Below, piece after piece: positions 22,999 to 53,913 of a stretch of DNA of 64,000 bases; the stretch's first letter is position 1, and each line of letters begins with the position of its first letter. Where the stretch lies: IMG/VR virus record IMGVR_UViG_3300035212_002019, positions 18,063 through 82,062 of that record. One strand, written 5' to 3'. The notes under the pieces were generated by a model. The model was not told the origin of the DNA and did no database searches. It was given only the letters and a program-made list of their open reading frames with translations. Origin of the DNA: a virus. Both the position numbers and the translations under genes were made by a program.

Positions 22999-23090
22999 TA
23001 GAATTTTCCAAAGATTTGTCTATTCTGAACTTCATCAACATATTTTTGTATTTCTGCTAGATAGTTCCAAATATTTTTAAGGTATTTCAT
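22998..23090 (-). CDS. 30-residue micro-protein coupled to clpS
   Basis: The start ATG (23090-23088) overlaps the clpS stop as TAATG, and the frame stays open for 30 codons to a TAA at 23000-22998, next to the terminator. The peptide begins MKYLKNIWNYLAEIQKY and is amphipathic and helical, with a start that partly resembles the shared head-targeting peptide. The overlap and the position just before the terminator support real translation. It is too short for a family assignment. Confidence 0.45.
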   Translation of the reverse strand: MKYLKNIWNYLAEIQKYVDEVQNRQIFGKF

Positions 23091-23374
23091 TAGTTGTTTG
23101 CCTCCATCGTAGCACTTAGTCCAGCACTTCTGAGTTTATCTTTCATAGTTGCTATTGTTTCAATATCTCCGTATTTAACATCACACTTTCCATTGTAGTG
23201 AACAATATGAGCGCATTGAGTAGCTTGTTCGGTTTCATGCTTACATATCTTCATAAGACAAGTAATAACCCACTCAAATGTATTGTGATCATCATTGTGT
23301 AAAACCAGTTTGTATGGTTTAGATAAAATTTCTTCTACTTTAGAAGATGTTTTCTTTTTTGTAATTGTTGCCAT
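23090..23374 (-). CDS. clpS: ClpS, N-degron adaptor for the ClpAP protease
   Basis: A 94-residue protein, the usual ClpS size. After a basic N-terminal tail (1-17) it reads Y-K-L-V-L-H-N-D-D-H-N-T-F-E-W-V, the ClpS signature. N27, D28 and D29 would line the pocket that binds the N-terminal residue of substrates. C-A-H-I-V-H-Y-N-G-K-C matches the second conserved segment with its His. In bacteria ClpS brings proteins with destabilising N-termini to ClpA. No clpA/clpP is seen here, so it would act on the host protease, either to redirect it or to block it. It is in a small minus-strand operon behind the HAD gene and before a micro-ORF. Confidence 0.88.
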   Translation of the reverse strand: MATITKKKTSSKVEEILSKPYKLVLHNDDHNTFEWVITCLMKICKHETEQATQCAHIVHYNGKCDVKYGDIETIATMKDKLRSAGLSATMEANN

Positions 23375-31268: not shown

Positions 31269-32363
31269 TTATGCTTCTGTTGAAACCTCAAATTCAGAAT
31301 AAACTGTTTGTAACATTCTAAGTGATACTTGGTAAGGATCACAGTTAGAAGCTGGTCTTCTATCTTCAAAGTAGCCTTTTCCTTCAACAATTGCTTGTGC
31401 TGGAATTCTGATAGATGTGTCTCTTGTAGAGAAGCCGTAACTGAAATCATTGATACTTGATGTTTCGTGAGCACCAGTTAATCTTTGGTCGTTATGTAAT
31501 CCGTAAACCGCAATGTGTTCTCTTTGATACTTTTCTAATTTAGACATAGTTTCTTTAATGATGTCTAATCCGCCTTCTTCTCTCATTTCTTTAGTAGAGA
31601 AGTTAACATGACAACCTGTTCCGTTCCAGTCGCCTTTTAGTGGTTTAGGATGTAAAGAAACTTTAACATTATATTTTTCAGCAACTCTTTGTAACAAATA
31701 ACGAGAAACCCATAATTGGTCAGAACCTTCTAAAGCAGTAACTGGTCCAATTTGATATTCCCATTGTCCTAAAAGAACTTCAGCATTAATACCGGAAATA
31801 TCTAAACCAATTTCCATACACATATTCATATGTTCTTCAACAATGTCTCTACCAACTACATTATCAGATCCGATACCACAGTAGTAGTCACCTTGAGGTC
31901 TTGGTGTTGAATTTGGATCCAAAGTAAATCCTAATGGAATACCTTCACCAATGCCAAATGGAATCATTGGTTTGTGTGTAAGAGTGTATTCTTGTTCCCA
32001 GCCAAACCAAGGAAGTTCTAATTTATCACCTGAATTGATGCCCAATTCATTAACTTTTTCAGCTAATGTTCTTCTGTTGTTTGTTTCGTGTTGTGTTCCG
32101 TCTGGGTTAAGAACTTCACAGAAAACTAATTTGTTTAATCCTTTTCTAAATGGATCGTATGTTACAAATACGGGTTTTAATAAACAGTCTGTGTTTTTAC
32201 CTTTACCTGATTGTGCTTGTAACGTTGAACTTCCGTCAAATGACCATATTGAATAGTCAGAAGGATTCATAGAATTAATTTCTGAGGCGATTTTAGTTTT
32301 ACTTCTAAGTTGTTGAGGGTTTGAACCATCAAGCCAAATGTACTCTAGTTTGATATTACTCAT
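31269..32363 (-). CDS. glnA: Glutamine synthetase, type II
   Basis: A 364-residue enzyme that makes glutamine from glutamate, ammonia and ATP. The short length and motifs are those of the GSII (eukaryote-like) class: I-W-L-D-G-S-N near the N-terminus, G-W-E-Q-E-Y-T-L (metal Glu), I-N-A-E-V-L-L-G-Q-W-E-Y-Q-I-G-P, W-N-G-T-G-C-H-V-N-F-S, R-L-T-G-A-H-E-T-S-S-I, and Y-F-E-D-R-R-P-A-S-N-C-D-P-Y. All metal and substrate residues I can place are present, so it should be active. It stands alone between a terminator and a 82-base intergenic gap. As a phage gene it is an auxiliary metabolic gene, probably host-derived, keeping nitrogen supply up during infection. Confidence 0.93.
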   Translation of the reverse strand: MSNIKLEYIWLDGSNPQQLRSKTKIASEINSMNPSDYSIWSFDGSSTLQAQSGKGKNTDCLLKPVFVTYDPFRKGLNKLVFCEVLNPDGTQHETNNRRTLAEKVNELGINSGDKLELPWFGWEQEYTLTHKPMIPFGIGEGIPLGFTLDPNSTPRPQGDYYCGIGSDNVVGRDIVEEHMNMCMEIGLDISGINAEVLLGQWEYQIGPVTALEGSDQLWVSRYLLQRVAEKYNVKVSLHPKPLKGDWNGTGCHVNFSTKEMREEGGLDIIKETMSKLEKYQREHIAVYGLHNDQRLTGAHETSSINDFSYGFSTRDTSIRIPAQAIVEGKGYFEDRRPASNCDPYQVSLRMLQTVYSEFEVSTEA

Positions 32364-41823: not shown

Positions 41824-43539
41824 ATGTCACACATTAGAATAGACAAATCAAAAGCAGTTAAGAAATGGGCTCCAGTTTTGGAAAACATGGGTGTAACTGA
41901 AGATAGAGTAGAATGGATGTCAGAAATGGCTGAGTATCACTCAATCAATGAGAATGCGTATGTAAACGCATCAAACGTAGCAGGTATGGGAGCTGTATTG
42001 AATCCAGTTGTTGGTTCATTAGCTGGTAATCCTGGTAACTACTCAAATGCTTACGGTAACGTAGCAGGTTCTGGAGACGTAGGTCAAAACTTACTTCCAG
42101 TAGCTATGAAAATTGCTGCTCAAACAATCGGTTTAGACTTAGTAGCTGTTAAACCAACTCCAGGTCCAAAAATCGATTTATTATACATCGATTTCCAATA
42201 CGATGATGTTAATAACTTAACAGATGGTTATGAAAAGCCACAAGTTTTCAAATTATATGCTAGTAACATTACTGACATCAATGCTGTTATTGCTGCTGAC
42301 GTTGCTGGTACAGATAGAAATGGTTATACTTTAGCTCCGTTACAACAAACAACTGGTGGATTACAAGGTGGTAGATTATTCTACGGTATCACTGCTTCAT
42401 CAGCATTTGTAAGTAACACTTTACCAGCATCTAAAACAAATGTAGTTGAATTCTTAGGTTTCTCTCGTATCGATGGTTACCCAATGTTCAGAGTATTCAG
42501 ACAAGCAAATACATCAGGTAACATTTCTGTTCCTCATACATTTGTTGCTGCTGACAACACATTTGCTGCTACAGGTAGTATGCTTTCTCAAATTTTAGGT
42601 TTAGCTGGTTTAGTTCCTAACGCAGGAACAAAAGAAGTTCAATTGATCTCTGCTTTAGAAGATCATATCCCAGGATTCACATCTAACTGGACTGCTGCTT
42701 CAGGTGGTGCTTTAGGTAACTATCCAATGGATCGTGCTTCTGATGATAACAGTTATGCTGGTGTTATCGGACCAAAAATCTCTTCTAAAACTGTAGCAGT
42801 TGGTACTATTGAAGTATCTTCAGCTCTTAGAAGAACTGAAATCGAAGATATCAAAGCTAACACAGGTATGGATATCGTTCAAAAAATGGAGTCTATCCTT
42901 GTTAACGAATTGTCTCAAACAATTTCTAAACAAATCGTTGCTAAAATCTTCGAAATGGGTGCTCTTAATGCTGTTAATGCTCCTGCTGCTCCAGCTGGTT
43001 CTGCTAACAGTGGAGGTACTATCTTCGATTTGAACACTGCTTATGCTGCTACTACTTATGTTGGTGGTGAAACTACTCACGCTGTTCAACGTAAGTTAAT
43101 CACTAAGATTGCTCACGCTTCTAACTACATTGCTACTGAAGGTCGTGTAGGTCCTGCTCAATACCTTATCACAAACGGAGGTCTTGCTGCTGCTTTACAA
43201 GATATCGCTGGTTACACAATTAACCCAGTTAAATCTAAATTAAACGGACAAGGTCAATTATACCCTGTAGGTTCAATCGGAGACATCTCTATCTATGTAG
43301 ATCCATATATGAGATATAACGATAACAGAATCGTATTAGGTCGTAAGAACAACCCTGACCAACCAGGTATCATTTTCGTACCTTACTTAATGGCTCAGTC
43401 TATCTCAGTTATCTCTGAAGCTACATTCGCTCCAAGAATGTTGTTACGTTCAAGATATGCTGTAACTGAAGTTGGTTGGTTCCCACAAAAACAATACATG
43501 ACTATTACAGTTACTGACGCTGCTCAGTTATTAAACTAA
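41824..43539 (+). CDS. 23: Major capsid protein (T4 gp23-like)
   Basis: A 571-residue HK97-fold capsid protein. N-terminal residues 1-43 (to Y-H-S-I-N-E-N) look like the cleaved propeptide; I-N-E fits the T4 protease rule (I/L)-x-E. Then come N-L-L-P-V-A-M-K-I-A-A-Q-T-I-G-L-D-L-V (cf. gp23), the spine-helix segment I-K-A-N-T-G-M-D-I-V-Q-K-M-E-S-I-L, and the P-domain motif E-G-R-V-G-P-A-Q-Y-L-I-T-N. T4 gp23 has 521 residues. Codon use is richer in C-ending codons than most genes here, as expected of a very highly expressed protein. Confidence 0.9.
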   Translation: MSHIRIDKSKAVKKWAPVLENMGVTEDRVEWMSEMAEYHSINENAYVNASNVAGMGAVLNPVVGSLAGNPGNYSNAYGNVAGSGDVGQNLLPVAMKIAAQTIGLDLVAVKPTPGPKIDLLYIDFQYDDVNNLTDGYEKPQVFKLYASNITDINAVIAADVAGTDRNGYTLAPLQQTTGGLQGGRLFYGITASSAFVSNTLPASKTNVVEFLGFSRIDGYPMFRVFRQANTSGNISVPHTFVAADNTFAATGSMLSQILGLAGLVPNAGTKEVQLISALEDHIPGFTSNWTAASGGALGNYPMDRASDDNSYAGVIGPKISSKTVAVGTIEVSSALRRTEIEDIKANTGMDIVQKMESILVNELSQTISKQIVAKIFEMGALNAVNAPAAPAGSANSGGTIFDLNTAYAATTYVGGETTHAVQRKLITKIAHASNYIATEGRVGPAQYLITNGGLAAALQDIAGYTINPVKSKLNGQGQLYPVGSIGDISIYVDPYMRYNDNRIVLGRKNNPDQPGIIFVPYLMAQSISVISEATFAPRMLLRSRYAVTEVGWFPQKQYMTITVTDAAQLLN

Positions 43540-46696: not shown

Positions 46697-47200
46697 ATGA
46701 TTGATAAATTTGAAGGTCGTTATAGATTCTTATCCAACTTCTACCCTTGTACAATAGAACATCAGGGTATTACTTACCCATCTGTTGAGAACTTTTATGT
46801 TGCTATGAAAGTTAATGACCAACAATTAATTAATGGTAAATATTACACACCAGGTGACTTTCGTGAAATGATTGCTAGAATTTCTAATCCTGCTGAAGTT
46901 AAGAAGATTGGTTCTAAAATAAAATTAAGAACTGGTTGGGATGAAAAGAAATTAGAAGTAATGAACTGGGCTGTTCGCCAAAAGTTCAAAGATGAAACTT
47001 TATCTGAAATGTTATTATCTACTGGTGACCAAGAGTTAATTGAAGGTAACTGGTGGAAAGATTATTTCTGGGGAGTTTGTAATGGTAAAGGTGATAATAA
47101 TCTTGGTAAAATTTTAATGACTGTTCGTGAAGAAATTTCTTTACAAAATCAAAAACCTTCAATCGAAGATATAATAAAAGACAAAAATAAATTAAATTAA
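46697..47200 (+). CDS. NADAR-family N-glycosidase (YbiA-like)
   Basis: A 167-residue protein that matches NADAR from end to end: F-L-S-N-F-Y-P-C-T-I-E-H-Q-G-I-T-Y-P-S-V-E-N, I-K-L-R-T-G-W-D-E-K-K-L-E-V-M, L-L-S-T-G-D-Q-E-L-I-E-G-N-W-W-K-D-Y-F-W-G-V and N-L-G-K-I-L-M-T-V-R-E-E. Known members cleave N-glycosidic bonds, in riboflavin-pathway intermediates (YbiA) or in ADP-ribosylated guanine. In a phage the latter would undo DNA ADP-ribosylation by DarT-type defences; this is inference. It is followed two bases later by the DNA methylase gene. Confidence 0.85.
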   Translation: MIDKFEGRYRFLSNFYPCTIEHQGITYPSVENFYVAMKVNDQQLINGKYYTPGDFREMIARISNPAEVKKIGSKIKLRTGWDEKKLEVMNWAVRQKFKDETLSEMLLSTGDQELIEGNWWKDYFWGVCNGKGDNNLGKILMTVREEISLQNQKPSIEDIIKDKNKLN

Positions 47201-49124: not shown

Positions 49125-49130
49125 AAAGAA

Positions 49131-49159
49131 AAAATCTCAGAGAAATCTGAGGTTTTTTT
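49131..49159. terminator. Bidirectional terminator
   Basis: CTCAG and CTGAG in an A-run/T-run context (AAAATCTCAG ... CTGAGGTTTTT). Shared by the convergent genes ending at 49124 and 49162. Confidence 0.7.
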
Positions 49160-49458: not shown

Positions 49459-49524
49459 TTTATAGAATTACTTTTTTGTATATATTAATTGTCAAATCTC
49501 ATTTCTTTCATTTTAGAGAGCCGG

Positions 49525-49540
49525 TTTTTTATATATACTT
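49525..49540 (+). promoter_or_regulatory. Late-type promoter
   Basis: TTTTTTATATATACTT ends next to an ATG at 49541 that opens only a 14-codon frame. The main gene starts at 49582. Confidence 0.5.
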
Positions 49541-49581
49541 ATGATAAAAAACAAAAATCAAAAAGAGTGTATAATAAAGAT

Positions 49582-50922
49582 ATGAGTAAATTAGTAACGT
49601 TAAACGGAAATAATGATCAAGAACTTCTAAGTTCTATCTTTGACAATGAAATTGTTGTATTTGAAGATATTCAAGGATCAAAAATATGGGTTAATTGGGA
49701 TGGTAAAGAATTTACTATTAAACCAAAGTCAATGAGTAGTGAGAAACTTAATCTCGTTGATTTGGCTATTCAAAACTATTATAATCCAGGTATTAAATAT
49801 TTAGAATCATTAGATGTTAGAGTTAAATCGTTGTTAAATAAAAAATGGTGGTTTTGTTTTGAATATTTCCCAGATGAACAGCCCGCTAATATTGGATATG
49901 ATAGAGTTCCTAAGAATCATTTAGTTTTGACTGCTATTAATAAAGGTGGTAAGTATGACTTTAGTATTGAAGAGTTAGATGAGTATGCTAGATTATTTGA
50001 TGTTGATATGTTACCAATTGTTTTTCAAGGTAAATTAACTGAAAGAATGATTGAGGCTATTAAATACTTTATTAACACAAGTGAAGATGACTTAGAATAT
50101 GTATTTGGTGAAAAGTCGTTTTCTTTTTTCTTCTACAGAATATTAAATCCAAGTTCTACTAACTCGTTCTTAATGAAAGATGAAGATTATCAATCAAATC
50201 TTGAGAAACTTATTGTAAGAACTAAAAGTGGTGATATTTCATTTGAAATATTAAATCCTTTATACAGAAGAATAAGTGATAGTAACTCAACAGAATTTGT
50301 TGAAATTTATACACTTATATTAGTTAACTTCTTAAACTTCTGTCAATCATTTAACTTAGATGAAATTAAATTAAAAGGTGAAAGAAGAGATGAAGTTTAT
50401 ATTTATCTAATGTCTAAACTATTCAATGTTTATGTTTCTGAAGTTAAACAAGATTTATTAGACTTTGACTTTGTTGTTCCTGAATTCTTTGATAAAGAAA
50501 AGTTCAAAATTAATACAGAATTAATTCCTAATAAATTAACTAAAGACTATATTAAAGAGTCTGACAAGTTAGAATATATCTTTAAGGTTATTCTTGGTTC
50601 ATTTAACAAGAAAAGAAAGAAAGCAATTGGTGTATTTACCGATAATACAGTTATCTTATTTAACACATTTGTCAATGATATTAATGTTTATATTGAAAAG
50701 TATCTAAATAAAGTACACGAGGTTGAATTAACAAGAGCTGGATTACTTGATTTTGGTGACTTCTTTGAGATTCAATATGACCAAGATGGTGAAGGTGAAG
50801 TTTATCCTGATGTTTATTCAGAGTTTGAAAAAGGAACACCTGAAGAAAAGAAGAAAAAAGGTAAAGGTGGTAAAGGTTTACCCGTACCAGAAGAAGGACC
50901 GTCTAAAACTCCTACTAAGTAA
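49582..50922 (+). CDS. Degenerate nucleotidyltransferase (RNA/DNA ligase)-like protein
   Basis: The start at ATG 49582 is chosen because the upstream TTG frame (49489) spans the promoter. The product is 446 residues. V-V-F-E-D-I-Q-G-S-K-I-W-V-N-W-D-G lines up with ligase motif I (E-K-x-x-G-S), but the nucleophile Lys is replaced by Asp. W-W-F-C-F-E-Y-F-P-D-E-Q looks like motif III. E-K-L-I-V-R-T-K-S-G and S-F-E-I-L-N-P-L-Y-R-R stand where motifs IV and V would be. So it looks like an inactive relative of phage RNA ligases, perhaps with a structural or binding role. The C-terminus is basic and Gly/Lys/Pro-rich. The stop overlaps the next ATG. Confidence 0.45.
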   Translation: MSKLVTLNGNNDQELLSSIFDNEIVVFEDIQGSKIWVNWDGKEFTIKPKSMSSEKLNLVDLAIQNYYNPGIKYLESLDVRVKSLLNKKWWFCFEYFPDEQPANIGYDRVPKNHLVLTAINKGGKYDFSIEELDEYARLFDVDMLPIVFQGKLTERMIEAIKYFINTSEDDLEYVFGEKSFSFFFYRILNPSSTNSFLMKDEDYQSNLEKLIVRTKSGDISFEILNPLYRRISDSNSTEFVEIYTLILVNFLNFCQSFNLDEIKLKGERRDEVYIYLMSKLFNVYVSEVKQDLLDFDFVVPEFFDKEKFKINTELIPNKLTKDYIKESDKLEYIFKVILGSFNKKRKKAIGVFTDNTVILFNTFVNDINVYIEKYLNKVHEVELTRAGLLDFGDFFEIQYDQDGEGEVYPDVYSEFEKGTPEEKKKKGKGGKGLPVPEEGPSKTPTK

Positions 50923-51134
50923 TGAACTCAATTGATATTAATATGAGAAGTGTTCAAGTTGAAACTAAAACAAGAGCGCTTAGATCTACTTGGACTCGTG
51001 AATTGGCAACTGATTTAGATTCATATCATAATATTGATATTGAAAAGGAACTTTCTCATCTTTTGAAAGAAGAGCTTCGTAAACAACGAGCTTCTAGTAG
51101 AAAAAAATCAATCAATAAAATCTTCCAAAATTAA
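50922..51134 (+). CDS. Capsid-segment-like small protein
   Basis: A 70-residue protein. V-E-T-K-T-R-A-L-R-S-T-W-T-R-E-L-A-T-D-L-D-S-Y-H-N-I-D, followed by E-K-E-L-S-H-L-L, closely follows one segment of gp23-type capsid proteins (T4: S-R-Q-L-K-A-A-Y-S-I-E-L-A-Q-D-L-R-A-V-H-G-M-D-A-D-A-E-L). The phage's own capsid protein (41824) has only a diverged version of this segment. So it may be a small capsid-derived piece or an assembly cofactor. A basic tail closes it. Confidence 0.5.
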   Translation: MNSIDINMRSVQVETKTRALRSTWTRELATDLDSYHNIDIEKELSHLLKEELRKQRASSRKKSINKIFQN

Positions 51135-51165
51135 GAACATAAACTTGGAATTTCATATAATTTAT

Positions 51166-52401
51166 ATGACAGTTTCAAGTGTAATTAAGCTCAGTGATAT
51201 AGAGTCCTATTCTTCAATTAAGAAGAATTTAGAGGGTAAGAAATGTAGCTTACAGTTTCTACCGGTTTCGTTAGAAACAATTTCAAAACAAAAGAATTTT
51301 ATTTATAAAGGTCAAAAGTTGAAGTCAGCTTATTTGATTGATATTATTCATAATTTAATTCTAAAGTATTATTTCAAAAAAGAAAATAAATTTCATTTAA
51401 TGTCTCCTATTTTAAAGGAGAAGTATGGTTATTTATATAACTACTATATGGATTTTCTTACAGAGAATAAAATTATTATTCTTTTAGCAAAACATCAAAA
51501 GGGTAAAAGTGCTAGAGTTTATGCCATTAATGAATATATTCTTAGAGGTAGTATTATTAGATTTAATAATAGTGATAGGACTTTACTTAAAAAGTATAAA
51601 GCAAAGGTAGCTCAGATAGTAGAAGATAAATTAGAAAACTCACTCATTGATAATGATATAAAGATTAAGTTAGTCGATGATTTATTTAAGATTCAAATTG
51701 AATTTGATAGGTCAATATTTTATTTAGACTCCTTAAAAAGTGATGATATTGATATTTATAATAGAAATAAATATTCAGTTGAGTGTATTAATGATAAACA
51801 CATATTTTATCATTTTGATAGTTATGGTCGCATGCATACTAACTTTACTATATTAAAGTCTTTTATTAGAAAGAATTGTCTATTAATTAATGATGAAGAA
51901 ACTCATGAAATAGATATTAAAAACTCACAACCTCTTTTCCTAACTAAATTGATTCAAGATTCCGGTACTAAATGGGTTAATCAAGAAGAATTTGAACTAT
52001 TCAAAAATCTTACTATTAATGGTACTTACTATAACTATATAATGGATCACCTTAAAACAAAAGATAGAGGTATGGTTAAAGAATTAACATATAAAGTACT
52101 ATTTGGTAGAAATGGTGTTAATAGTAAAGCCGATAAGATATTTAGTAGTCTTTTCCCAACTATACATTATTTTATTAAATTGTATAAAAAAGAACACGGA
52201 GATTATAAAGTATTGGCTTATGAATTACAAAAGTCTGAGAGTAATCTTATTTTTAATAAAATTATTAGACAAATAATGACACTTTATCCAGAAATAAATT
52301 TAGTTACTGTACACGACAGTATAATTATACCAAAGTCTTATAAAGATTCGGTTTGGGCAATTTTTCAAACCAAACTTTATGAAGAATTCGGACTTATTTA
52401 A
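51166..52401 (+). CDS. Family-A-polymerase-like palm protein
   Basis: The start at ATG 51166 is preferred to the TTG at 51145. The product is 411 residues. The C-terminal half carries three polymerase motifs in order. Motif A is E-I-D-I-K-N-S-Q-P (D250). Motif B is R-G-M-V-K-E-L-T-Y-K-V-L-F-G (R301, K305, F313-G314), exactly the R-x3-K-x7-[YF]-G of PolA. Motif C is V-T-V-H-D-S-I-I-I (H383-D384). HDS rather than HDE is as in T7-type RNA polymerase. There is no exonuclease domain. The N-terminal half is helical and basic. It could be a minimal DNA or RNA polymerase or a primase-like enzyme. This rests on motif reading. Confidence 0.5.
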   Translation: MTVSSVIKLSDIESYSSIKKNLEGKKCSLQFLPVSLETISKQKNFIYKGQKLKSAYLIDIIHNLILKYYFKKENKFHLMSPILKEKYGYLYNYYMDFLTENKIIILLAKHQKGKSARVYAINEYILRGSIIRFNNSDRTLLKKYKAKVAQIVEDKLENSLIDNDIKIKLVDDLFKIQIEFDRSIFYLDSLKSDDIDIYNRNKYSVECINDKHIFYHFDSYGRMHTNFTILKSFIRKNCLLINDEETHEIDIKNSQPLFLTKLIQDSGTKWVNQEEFELFKNLTINGTYYNYIMDHLKTKDRGMVKELTYKVLFGRNGVNSKADKIFSSLFPTIHYFIKLYKKEHGDYKVLAYELQKSESNLIFNKIIRQIMTLYPEINLVTVHDSIIIPKSYKDSVWAIFQTKLYEEFGLI

Positions 52402-52601: not shown

Positions 52602-53141
52602 ATGACAGGATTGGAACACAAGGATGCCTCATTTATTCTACTATCATCTACACGTTTAGATGACATGATATCTATTTTATATGCCAAAGAATATCAAGTA
52701 TTACCCATTAAAGGTTACTACAAGGGTCAATATGAAGACTCTGTAATGGCTTATGGTAAAGTAGATAATGATACTTTAAGAAAAGATGTTCTTTTTCTTT
52801 TAAATCATTTCCATGAAGAATGTGCTATTATTAAATACACTGAAGAAACTAATGCTAAAAAGATATTTAAAGATGGATCTGAGATACCTATGGGTATTGT
52901 AATGTATAATACAGATTCTGATAATATGTCTTATTTACATAATGGTACATCATTCTCATTTGTTGAATCTAAAAGATATTGGAGACCAACTAAAAAAGAA
53001 GATTTCAGAGTTGGTATGCTAGTTGAATATTTCAATAATAATAAGTGGTTTGAAAAGCTTGTTGAGAATCCTAATGATGAATATGAAAAACTTTATAAAC
53101 TACTTATAAAGTATGATAAAGTTAGAGTTCCTTCTAAATAA
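52602..53141 (+). CDS. Hypothetical protein
   Basis: A 179-residue protein, not recognised. F-I-L-L-S-S-T-R-L-D-D-M-I-S, then G-Q-Y-E-D-S-V-M-A-Y-G, G-T-S-F-S-F-V-E-S and a charged helical C-terminus. It has its own promoter with the start codon abutting it. Its 3' end overlaps the convergent capsid-related gene by 8 bases. Confidence 0.5.
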   Translation: MTGLEHKDASFILLSSTRLDDMISILYAKEYQVLPIKGYYKGQYEDSVMAYGKVDNDTLRKDVLFLLNHFHEECAIIKYTEETNAKKIFKDGSEIPMGIVMYNTDSDNMSYLHNGTSFSFVESKRYWRPTKKEDFRVGMLVEYFNNNKWFEKLVENPNDEYEKLYKLLIKYDKVRVPSK

Positions 53142-53913
53142 TTTCAAACCAATTTATAATCTTAGAATAATTAGGAGTTTCTTTTAAGAAATATCTCATG
53201 TCATTTGGACAGTTAATTACATTTAATCCATTCTCAGTTTTCTGAGCATTTCTCATCATAATAATCTTATTTGATTTGATATAAGGAGAAGGTATAACAT
53301 TCATACCATTTATATTTCCATCCACAACACCATCTTTTATATCAGACATCATCATTCCATTAGACATCAGAAGATATTTATAAGCATCTAAACCAACTAT
53401 AATAGTATTGGCTGGTCCTGTTCTTCCGGTTGATGATATTAGATTACTGGTCATCATTAATCTTGTTATAACTTTTCTTGATGTTGATGACTCATTTTCA
53501 TAATCTGTTAGATTAGGATCTTTTTGAATAGAAACATTCAAATTTTGAGGAATATTCATTGACTTTGATGTTAATGATTCTAATGTCATCATAACATCAT
53601 TGTAAATATCAAATAAGTCTAAATAGGTTTTACCTTGAACATTAATAGAGTTAAGTTTAGGAGTTATAGTCATCATATAACTTTCGTTATCTAATGGATT
53701 TGAAAACGGTTCTCTATTTTTGAACTCTTCTACTTTACCTTCTACAATAGCATCAATCGCAAGTTCACGATTCTTTCTTTTTAATTCTCTTTGATATTCT
53801 TCACTGGGTACTTCATCCCAATCTATAAAAGTCATTACACCTTGTGGCAAAGAAGGCTTTGTAGATTCTATATAGTTACAGATTTTCTCTAAATCTTTAG
53901 ATGAAATTATCAT
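53134..53913 (-). CDS. Capsid-related (gp23 P-domain-like) protein
   Basis: A 259-residue protein. The C-terminal half contains S-S-T-G-R-T-G-P-A-N-T-I-I-V-G-L-D-A-Y-K-Y-L, then G-M-N-V-I-P-S-P-Y-I-K-S-N-K-I-I-M-M-R. This parallels the P-domain stretch of the phage's own capsid protein (E-G-R-V-G-P-A-Q-Y-L-I-T-N and Y-V-D-P-Y-M-R-Y-N-D-N-R-I-V-L-G). The usual N-terminal capsid regions are missing. It could be a diverged capsid paralog used as a vertex or decoration protein. The ATG lies within the end of the upstream glycosyltransferase gene (overlap 17 bases). Confidence 0.5.
   Translation of the reverse strand: MIISSKDLEKICNYIESTKPSLPQGVMTFIDWDEVPSEEYQRELKRKNRELAIDAIVEGKVEEFKNREPFSNPLDNESYMMTITPKLNSINVQGKTYLDLFDIYNDVMMTLESLTSKSMNIPQNLNVSIQKDPNLTDYENESSTSRKVITRLMMTSNLISSTGRTGPANTIIVGLDAYKYLLMSNGMMMSDIKDGVVDGNINGMNVIPSPYIKSNKIIMMRNAQKTENGLNVINCPNDMRYFLKETPNYSKIINWFEII

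Follow-up and report, generated by a model that had tools for sequence, protein, structure and literature searches.

The window analyzed here is a stretch of 64,000 nucleotides from an 82,062-base IMG/VR virus record, and it carries T4-type virion genes (terminase, portal, Gp23-like capsid, and tail sheath) together with a clamp loader and SbcD. Among its genes is one for a polymerase-like protein (Table 1), which starts with an ATG that is also the start in close homologs; an alternative TTG at 51145 would add seven amino acids. In a comparison with the homolog at locus L005, differences at the first, second, and third codon positions number 37, 14, and 134, respectively, and because they fall mostly at third positions, the gene is under purifying selection.

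Downstream of a terminator-like hairpin (49128–49159), the upstream neighbor, a short Gp23-like piece, and the polymerase gene follow one another head to tail. The upstream neighbor is syntenic in most relatives (64–90 per cent identity), and the gene order, including the gene downstream of the polymerase, is preserved in most close relatives; around more distant phage homologs, the neighbors are not conserved. Neither the upstream nor the downstream neighbor could be convincingly assigned to a family by Pfam or PHROG. The Gp23-like ORF directly precedes the polymerase gene and is kept beside it in many loci. A complete capsid gene lies elsewhere in the window (41824–43539), and an ORF on the minus strand (53134–53913) is weakly capsid-like. 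Since this ORF and the Gp23-like piece are both conserved near the polymerase gene in many relatives, they are not random debris.

Three further ORFs of the window were recognized by eye: a short ClpS-adaptor-like ORF on the minus strand (PYKLVLHNDDHNTFEWVI; 23090–23374), an NADAR/YbiA-like ORF on the plus strand (46697–47200; phrog_1017 match at 5e-43), and a glutamine synthetase-like ORF on the minus strand (31269–32363). Because glutamine synthetases have been reported in moraphages (PMC12619734), the window is perhaps derived from a moraphage-related lineage.

Table 1. Features of the polymerase locus, in window coordinates.
Feature	Position	Strand	Basis
Upstream neighbor, no known family, 477 aa (TTG) or 446 aa (ATG)	49489–50922	+	Opens the likely transcription unit
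70-aa protein resembling an inner segment of T4 capsid protein Gp23	50922–51134	+	PF07068 132–182, E = 2.5e-11
Family-A-like (TV-Pol-type) polymerase gene, 411 aa, without exonuclease domain	51166–52401	+	ORF, homologs, model, fold search, profile alignment
Probable winged-helix DNA-binding domain, residues about 54–121, predicted	51325–51528	+	Separate AlphaFold model, Foldseek
Hairpin DSYGRMHT with invariant Arg222	51817–51840	+	Arg in 37/37; aligned with PolA GRLSS, template-contacting Arg
Motif A EIDIKNSQPL, predicted catalytic Asp250; Gln255 where PolA has the steric-gate Glu	51907–51936	+	Aligned with PolA ADYSQIELR
Motif B/O helix R301-x3-K305-x7-F313-G314	52066–52107	+	Helix 301–313 in model
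Q355-x2-E358-S motif	52228–52242	+	In register with the PolA 'MQGTAADI' helix
Motif C TVHDSI, predicted catalytic Asp384	52306–52323	+	D384 in 37/37; strand pair in model
Downstream gene, 179 aa, no known family	52602–53141	+	Syntenic in nearly all close relatives

Polymerase motifs and predicted fold

The original prediction, made from the sequence alone, described a minimal family-A-like polymerase without an exonuclease, and the motifs on which it relied are present exactly as described: motif B (RGMVKELTYKVLFG, beginning at residue 301), D250 (within EIDIKNSQP), and H383-D384-S385 (within VHDS). The pattern R-x3-K-x7-[FY]-G arose by chance in 0.55 per cent of 200,000 shuffles of the protein, and the same pattern followed by HD[SE] 50–130 residues downstream in a fraction of 9e-5 of 200,000 shuffles. 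Conservation is the stronger proof that the motifs are real. In an alignment of 37 polymerase homologs that extends to below 20 per cent identity, R222, D250, Y289, K305, E358, and D384 are invariant, Q255 is identical in 36 members, and Q355 in 35, whereas H383 is found in 32 and is replaced by Phe in the remainder. Likewise, the window protein has the R-x3-K-x7-F-G of PolA, as claimed, but across homologs the 'R' of this motif is either Arg (32/37) or Lys (three more members), that is, one of the two in 35/37. The template Arg R222 (GRxHT) and Q355/E358 are conserved motifs beyond those originally listed.

Carrying over the E. coli PolA numbering through the alignment, we take R222 to correspond to R668, D250 to D705, Q255 to E710, R301 to R754, K305 to K758, Y309 to F762, F313 to Y766, Q355 to Q849, H383/D384 to H881/D882, and S385 to E883. 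Judged by these aligned positions, the window protein has the complete set of family-A catalytic residues, while Gln255 and Ser385 stand in place of the Glu residues that PolA has for sugar sensing and in motif C.

Family assignment required a profile that included divergent members. Scanned against Pfam, NCBIfam, and PHROGs, the window protein matched no family and no exonuclease family; alone, it had no match to PF00476 at an E-value of 10, thus lying below the Pfam gathering score, and none in a sequence search of the PDB. Twenty-five homologs scanned against families gave stray weak matches only, including one member with a match to a PHROG 'DNA polymerase I' at 0.002. A ribosomal protein returned by a profile search of the PDB was judged spurious. 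The profile of the 37 members, however, aligned with cellular PolA over 186 columns (hhalign; P-value = 9.9e-6, probability 82 per cent), with GR, motifs A and B, the Q-helix, and motif C in register, compared with a P-value of 0.93 for the reversed PolA profile used as a control. A narrower homolog profile gave a P-value of 0.016, and the signal became clear once divergent cellular members were included.

The AlphaFold model of the window protein (built with 39 sequences; mean pLDDT of 90.2) contains a winged-helix-like N-terminus and a polymerase-like part, and nothing else. In the latter, helices 163–173, 180–188, and 195–209 are predicted, hairpin strands 215–217 and 223–225 flank the region of R222, and D250 and D384 lie at strand ends. 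A predicted structure had been proposed as a check of the family-A reading, and the confident model indeed best matches family-A DNA polymerases: they occupy the top 12 ranks of the PDB fold search (probability 0.99–1.00), led by apicoplast DNA polymerase and followed by Aquifex and Bacillus Pol I (E-values of 3e-4 to 2e-3), with human mitochondrial RNA polymerase at rank 13. The TM-scores of these matches are mostly 0.3–0.44, and hence they indicate a fold class and not a close superposition; the low values may reflect either a domain arrangement unlike that of known PolA or poor superposition. Together, the fold matches and the in-register PolA alignment through motifs A–C bear out a minimal family-A-like polymerase without exonuclease. 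Its likeness to cellular DNA polymerase I (Klenow, PF00476) extends over all of the aligned motifs and includes the best solved-structure matches, but the window protein has neither a 3'-5' nor a 5'-3' exonuclease, and differs from it in Gln for the steric-gate Glu, HDS for HDE, and Phe at the Tyr766 position.

Among viral models, the fold search returned the 403-residue A0A8D9FR19 ('Putative DNA polymerase I [uncultured marine phage]' in BFVD/UniProt; 45 per cent identity, TM-score of 0.93), followed by other phage polymerase-like proteins of 400–450 residues. A0A8D9FR19 is a close relative of the window protein, although its polymerase label is a name only; with one relative deposited under such a name, the kind is already known.

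The original prediction also allowed for a single-subunit RNA polymerase, which would serve phage transcription or make RNA primers. T7-like RNA polymerases share the superfamily palm and the HDS of motif C with the window protein, and Gln in place of Glu at the steric gate could admit ribonucleotides. Against the 37-member profile, however, they matched over 32 columns at motif C (HDS) alone (hhalign; P-value = 0.054), far less well than PolA, and DNA polymerases rank first in the fold search. Furthermore, a protein of 411 residues (883 in T7-like enzymes) is too short to include the promoter-binding N-terminal domain of these RNA polymerases. PF00940 had no match in the genomes of relatives, but the controls were unmatched too. 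We therefore regard a transcribing RNA polymerase as very unlikely.

The extreme divergence of the family, and the replacement of the motif C His by Phe in a few relatives, would fit a catalytically dead descendant of a family-A polymerase with a structural or regulatory function. We consider this highly improbable, given that both Asp residues, Lys305, and Arg222 are invariant in 37/37 members and that the gene is under purifying selection. The retention of all catalytic positions in the most divergent members supports an active polymerase.

For the N-terminal region, residues 24–152 were modeled separately (AlphaFold; pLDDT of 93), and their elements follow the order helix-strand-helix-helix-strand-strand, which is that of a winged helix. 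The best Foldseek matches of this model are winged-helix regulators; because these weak matches reach an E-value of 0.05 only, we call the N-terminal winged helix probable.

Relatives in phages and mobile elements

Relatives of the polymerase are encoded at 57 IMG/VR loci (58–100 per cent identity), and an alignment-based scan of IMG/VR confirmed 132, the best 80 of which reach down to 39 per cent identity. Among annotated phage records, matches were found in uncultured huge phages only (595–735 kb; 35–70 per cent identity). The gene is present in 12 of the 13 contigs of at least 80 kb that have a close terminase, the remaining one being a 113-kb fragment. In a study of moraphages, the VOGs listed for large aquatic phages include one called 'DNA polymerase I' (occurrence 28; PMC12619734), which could be the family of the window gene or a different one.

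A scan of cellular genomes yielded 22 relatives (24–42 per cent identity), mostly from Bacteroidota, Ignavibacteria, and Verrucomicrobiota; in a sample of one phylum, 13 of 198 genomes have a relative, with several copies in one genome. At loci of cellular relatives, a tyrosine integrase lies in the flanks in 14/25 cases and an AlpA-like helix-turn-helix protein nearby in 7/25 (examples of the flank families were checked with Pfam). Many of the cellular kin thus appear to reside in integrase-bearing elements, mostly of Bacteroidota. No mobile element was recognized around the phage polymerase gene. Near two cellular relatives, we noticed by eye a Sak4-like P-loop ATPase (L403, 3649–4530; L404, 7722–8588), which could be a partner for replication or recombination in the elements of these cells.

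In the phylogenetic tree, most phage proteins and two MAG contigs form one clade (support of 100/100), whereas the protein of phage record LR756511 is placed, weakly, among the cellular mobile-element proteins. This separate grouping hints that phages may have acquired the polymerase gene twice.

These features recall the transposon/virus polymerases (TV-Pols), which were described in integrase-bearing mobile elements (Iyer, Abhiman, and Aravind 2008; PMC2579912). Like TV-Pols, the window protein is a minimal family-A core in the 400–600-residue range, has no nuclease, retains the invariant hairpin Arg, the two Asp residues, and the RxxxK fingers, and has cellular kin that appear to lie, in part, in integrase-bearing elements of Bacteroidota. 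TV-Pols also have an RRM-like palm for the two Asp residues, preceded by a thumb of two antiparallel helices, and are linked to elements with an integrase, resolvase, or transposase or to a D5 helicase. It differs from them in that no linkage to a D5 helicase was found for its family, its N-terminus is predicted to be winged-helix-like and not all-helical, and it belongs to huge T4-like phages with their own replicase. The family HMM found no match in Microcystis phage Ma-LMM01, the one published TV-Pol candidate compared. In that phage, BAF36121.1, picked by its motifs, is the probable TV-Pol, and since its relatives in IMG/VR are all at least 84 per cent identical, they gave no useful profile. 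With no D5 helicase and no match in Ma-LMM01, 'TV-Pol type' here denotes a mode of working and not formal membership.

Replication context and probable role

The expectation that the polymerase would be additional to a family-B replicase held in 14 of 15 records of relatives, which have PolB; the exception, LR756511, has Pol III alpha in a 1183-residue frame. The polymerase is not the replicase, since it occurs alongside replicases of two unrelated types. DnaB-type helicase matches were found in 11/11 records (10 over the cut-off), and 8/11, among them every one of the five huge phage records, also have a gp61-like primase (probed with phrog_47, as DNAG_N is too weak for gp61-like primases). 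Because a primase is usually present, the polymerase is not the sole source of primers, and priming by it is unnecessary for replication. The presence of PolB or Pol III alpha, a DnaB-type helicase, and a gp61-like primase in the same phages argues that the polymerase is accessory. Judged by match coordinates, its gene lies about 25 kb or less from the helicase gene in 8/11 records, an association that is weaker than it looks because the phages are kin; in three records, of 436, 508, and 735 kb in length, the helicase match is far from it.

In most larger records, PolB is split into two distant genes (covering about 18–165 and about 124–452 of PF00136; L032, L058, L059, L061, L131, L136, L137, and others). 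In LR756511, a 428-residue PF00476-positive gene directly follows the homolog with a 4-base overlap (L062, 7602–10048); its exonuclease part is seemingly degenerate, and the homolog alignment showed no similarity to this gene as a single sequence.

We think it probable that the window protein is an active, template-directed, exonuclease-less family-A polymerase of the TV-Pol type, which would most likely work as an accessory primase-polymerase or gap-filler. The probable N-terminal winged helix would hold DNA, and residues from about 160 to 411 would form the thumb-palm-fingers unit, in which Asp250 and Asp384 would be the two metal ligands, Arg301/Lys305 would bind the nucleotide, and Arg222 would contact the template. 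We infer that catalysis proceeds in this way and, from the nearest kin, that the enzyme would be DNA-using, with dNTPs chosen over NTPs. It would make or extend short pieces of DNA at sites of replication or repair, beside the separate replicase, and priming, restart, or gap filling are its most likely roles in vivo.

How far this activity would include priming separates two narrower readings. SCC elements encode a characterized TV-Pol, CcPol, which elongates primers using dNTPs and, in combination with MP, carries out priming (PMC7581432); pairs of PolA and SSB occur widely (PMC10061031). By description, CcPol resembles the window protein in being an exonuclease-less family-A polymerase with conserved neighbors in one likely transcription unit. 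A primase-polymerase proper, whose winged helix would bind specific DNA and which would make primers de novo, possibly at a phage origin and perhaps with the upstream or the downstream neighbor as a partner, is thus a serious candidate, though we stop short of calling it likely. Its conserved phage neighbors and DNA-binding-like predicted N-terminus agree with it, and by analogy the upstream or the downstream neighbor could be to it what MP is to CcPol. On the other hand, the locus has no recognizable MP/SSB-like or D5-helicase partner (D5_N was found in none of 16 genomes or records), a gp61-like primase is at hand in most records, the neighbors vary around more distant phage homologs, and the winged-helix assignment is weak. 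A repair or translesion DNA polymerase, which would only extend 3' ends (in gap filling or damage bypass) and never prime, seems a somewhat doubtful possibility. Many repair polymerases likewise have no exonuclease, and coexistence with differing replicases and with a primase would suit such an enzyme, but no repair genes were recognized adjoining the polymerase gene, and its TV-Pol kin are tied to the replication of mobile elements (PMC2579912).

The most specific version of the accessory reading strikes us as rather unlikely: that huge T4-like phages have taken from mobile elements of Bacteroidota a winged-helix family-A primase-polymerase that begins new DNA chains at one particular site of the phage, without relying on either the gp61-type primase or the replicase in use, be it PolB or Pol III alpha. 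A survey of 224 jumbo phages listed five types of DNA polymerases (PMC7824862), and the exonuclease-less family-A type, widespread and present in phages of up to 735 kb, is absent from that list; under the specific reading, it would be a further type outside the five. The gene makes testable the reason why some huge phages retain two unrelated polymerases. It also supplies more enzymes for asking how a family-A polymerase begins a chain without a primer, while the steric-gate Gln and the HDS in place of HDE offer a natural test of sugar selection.
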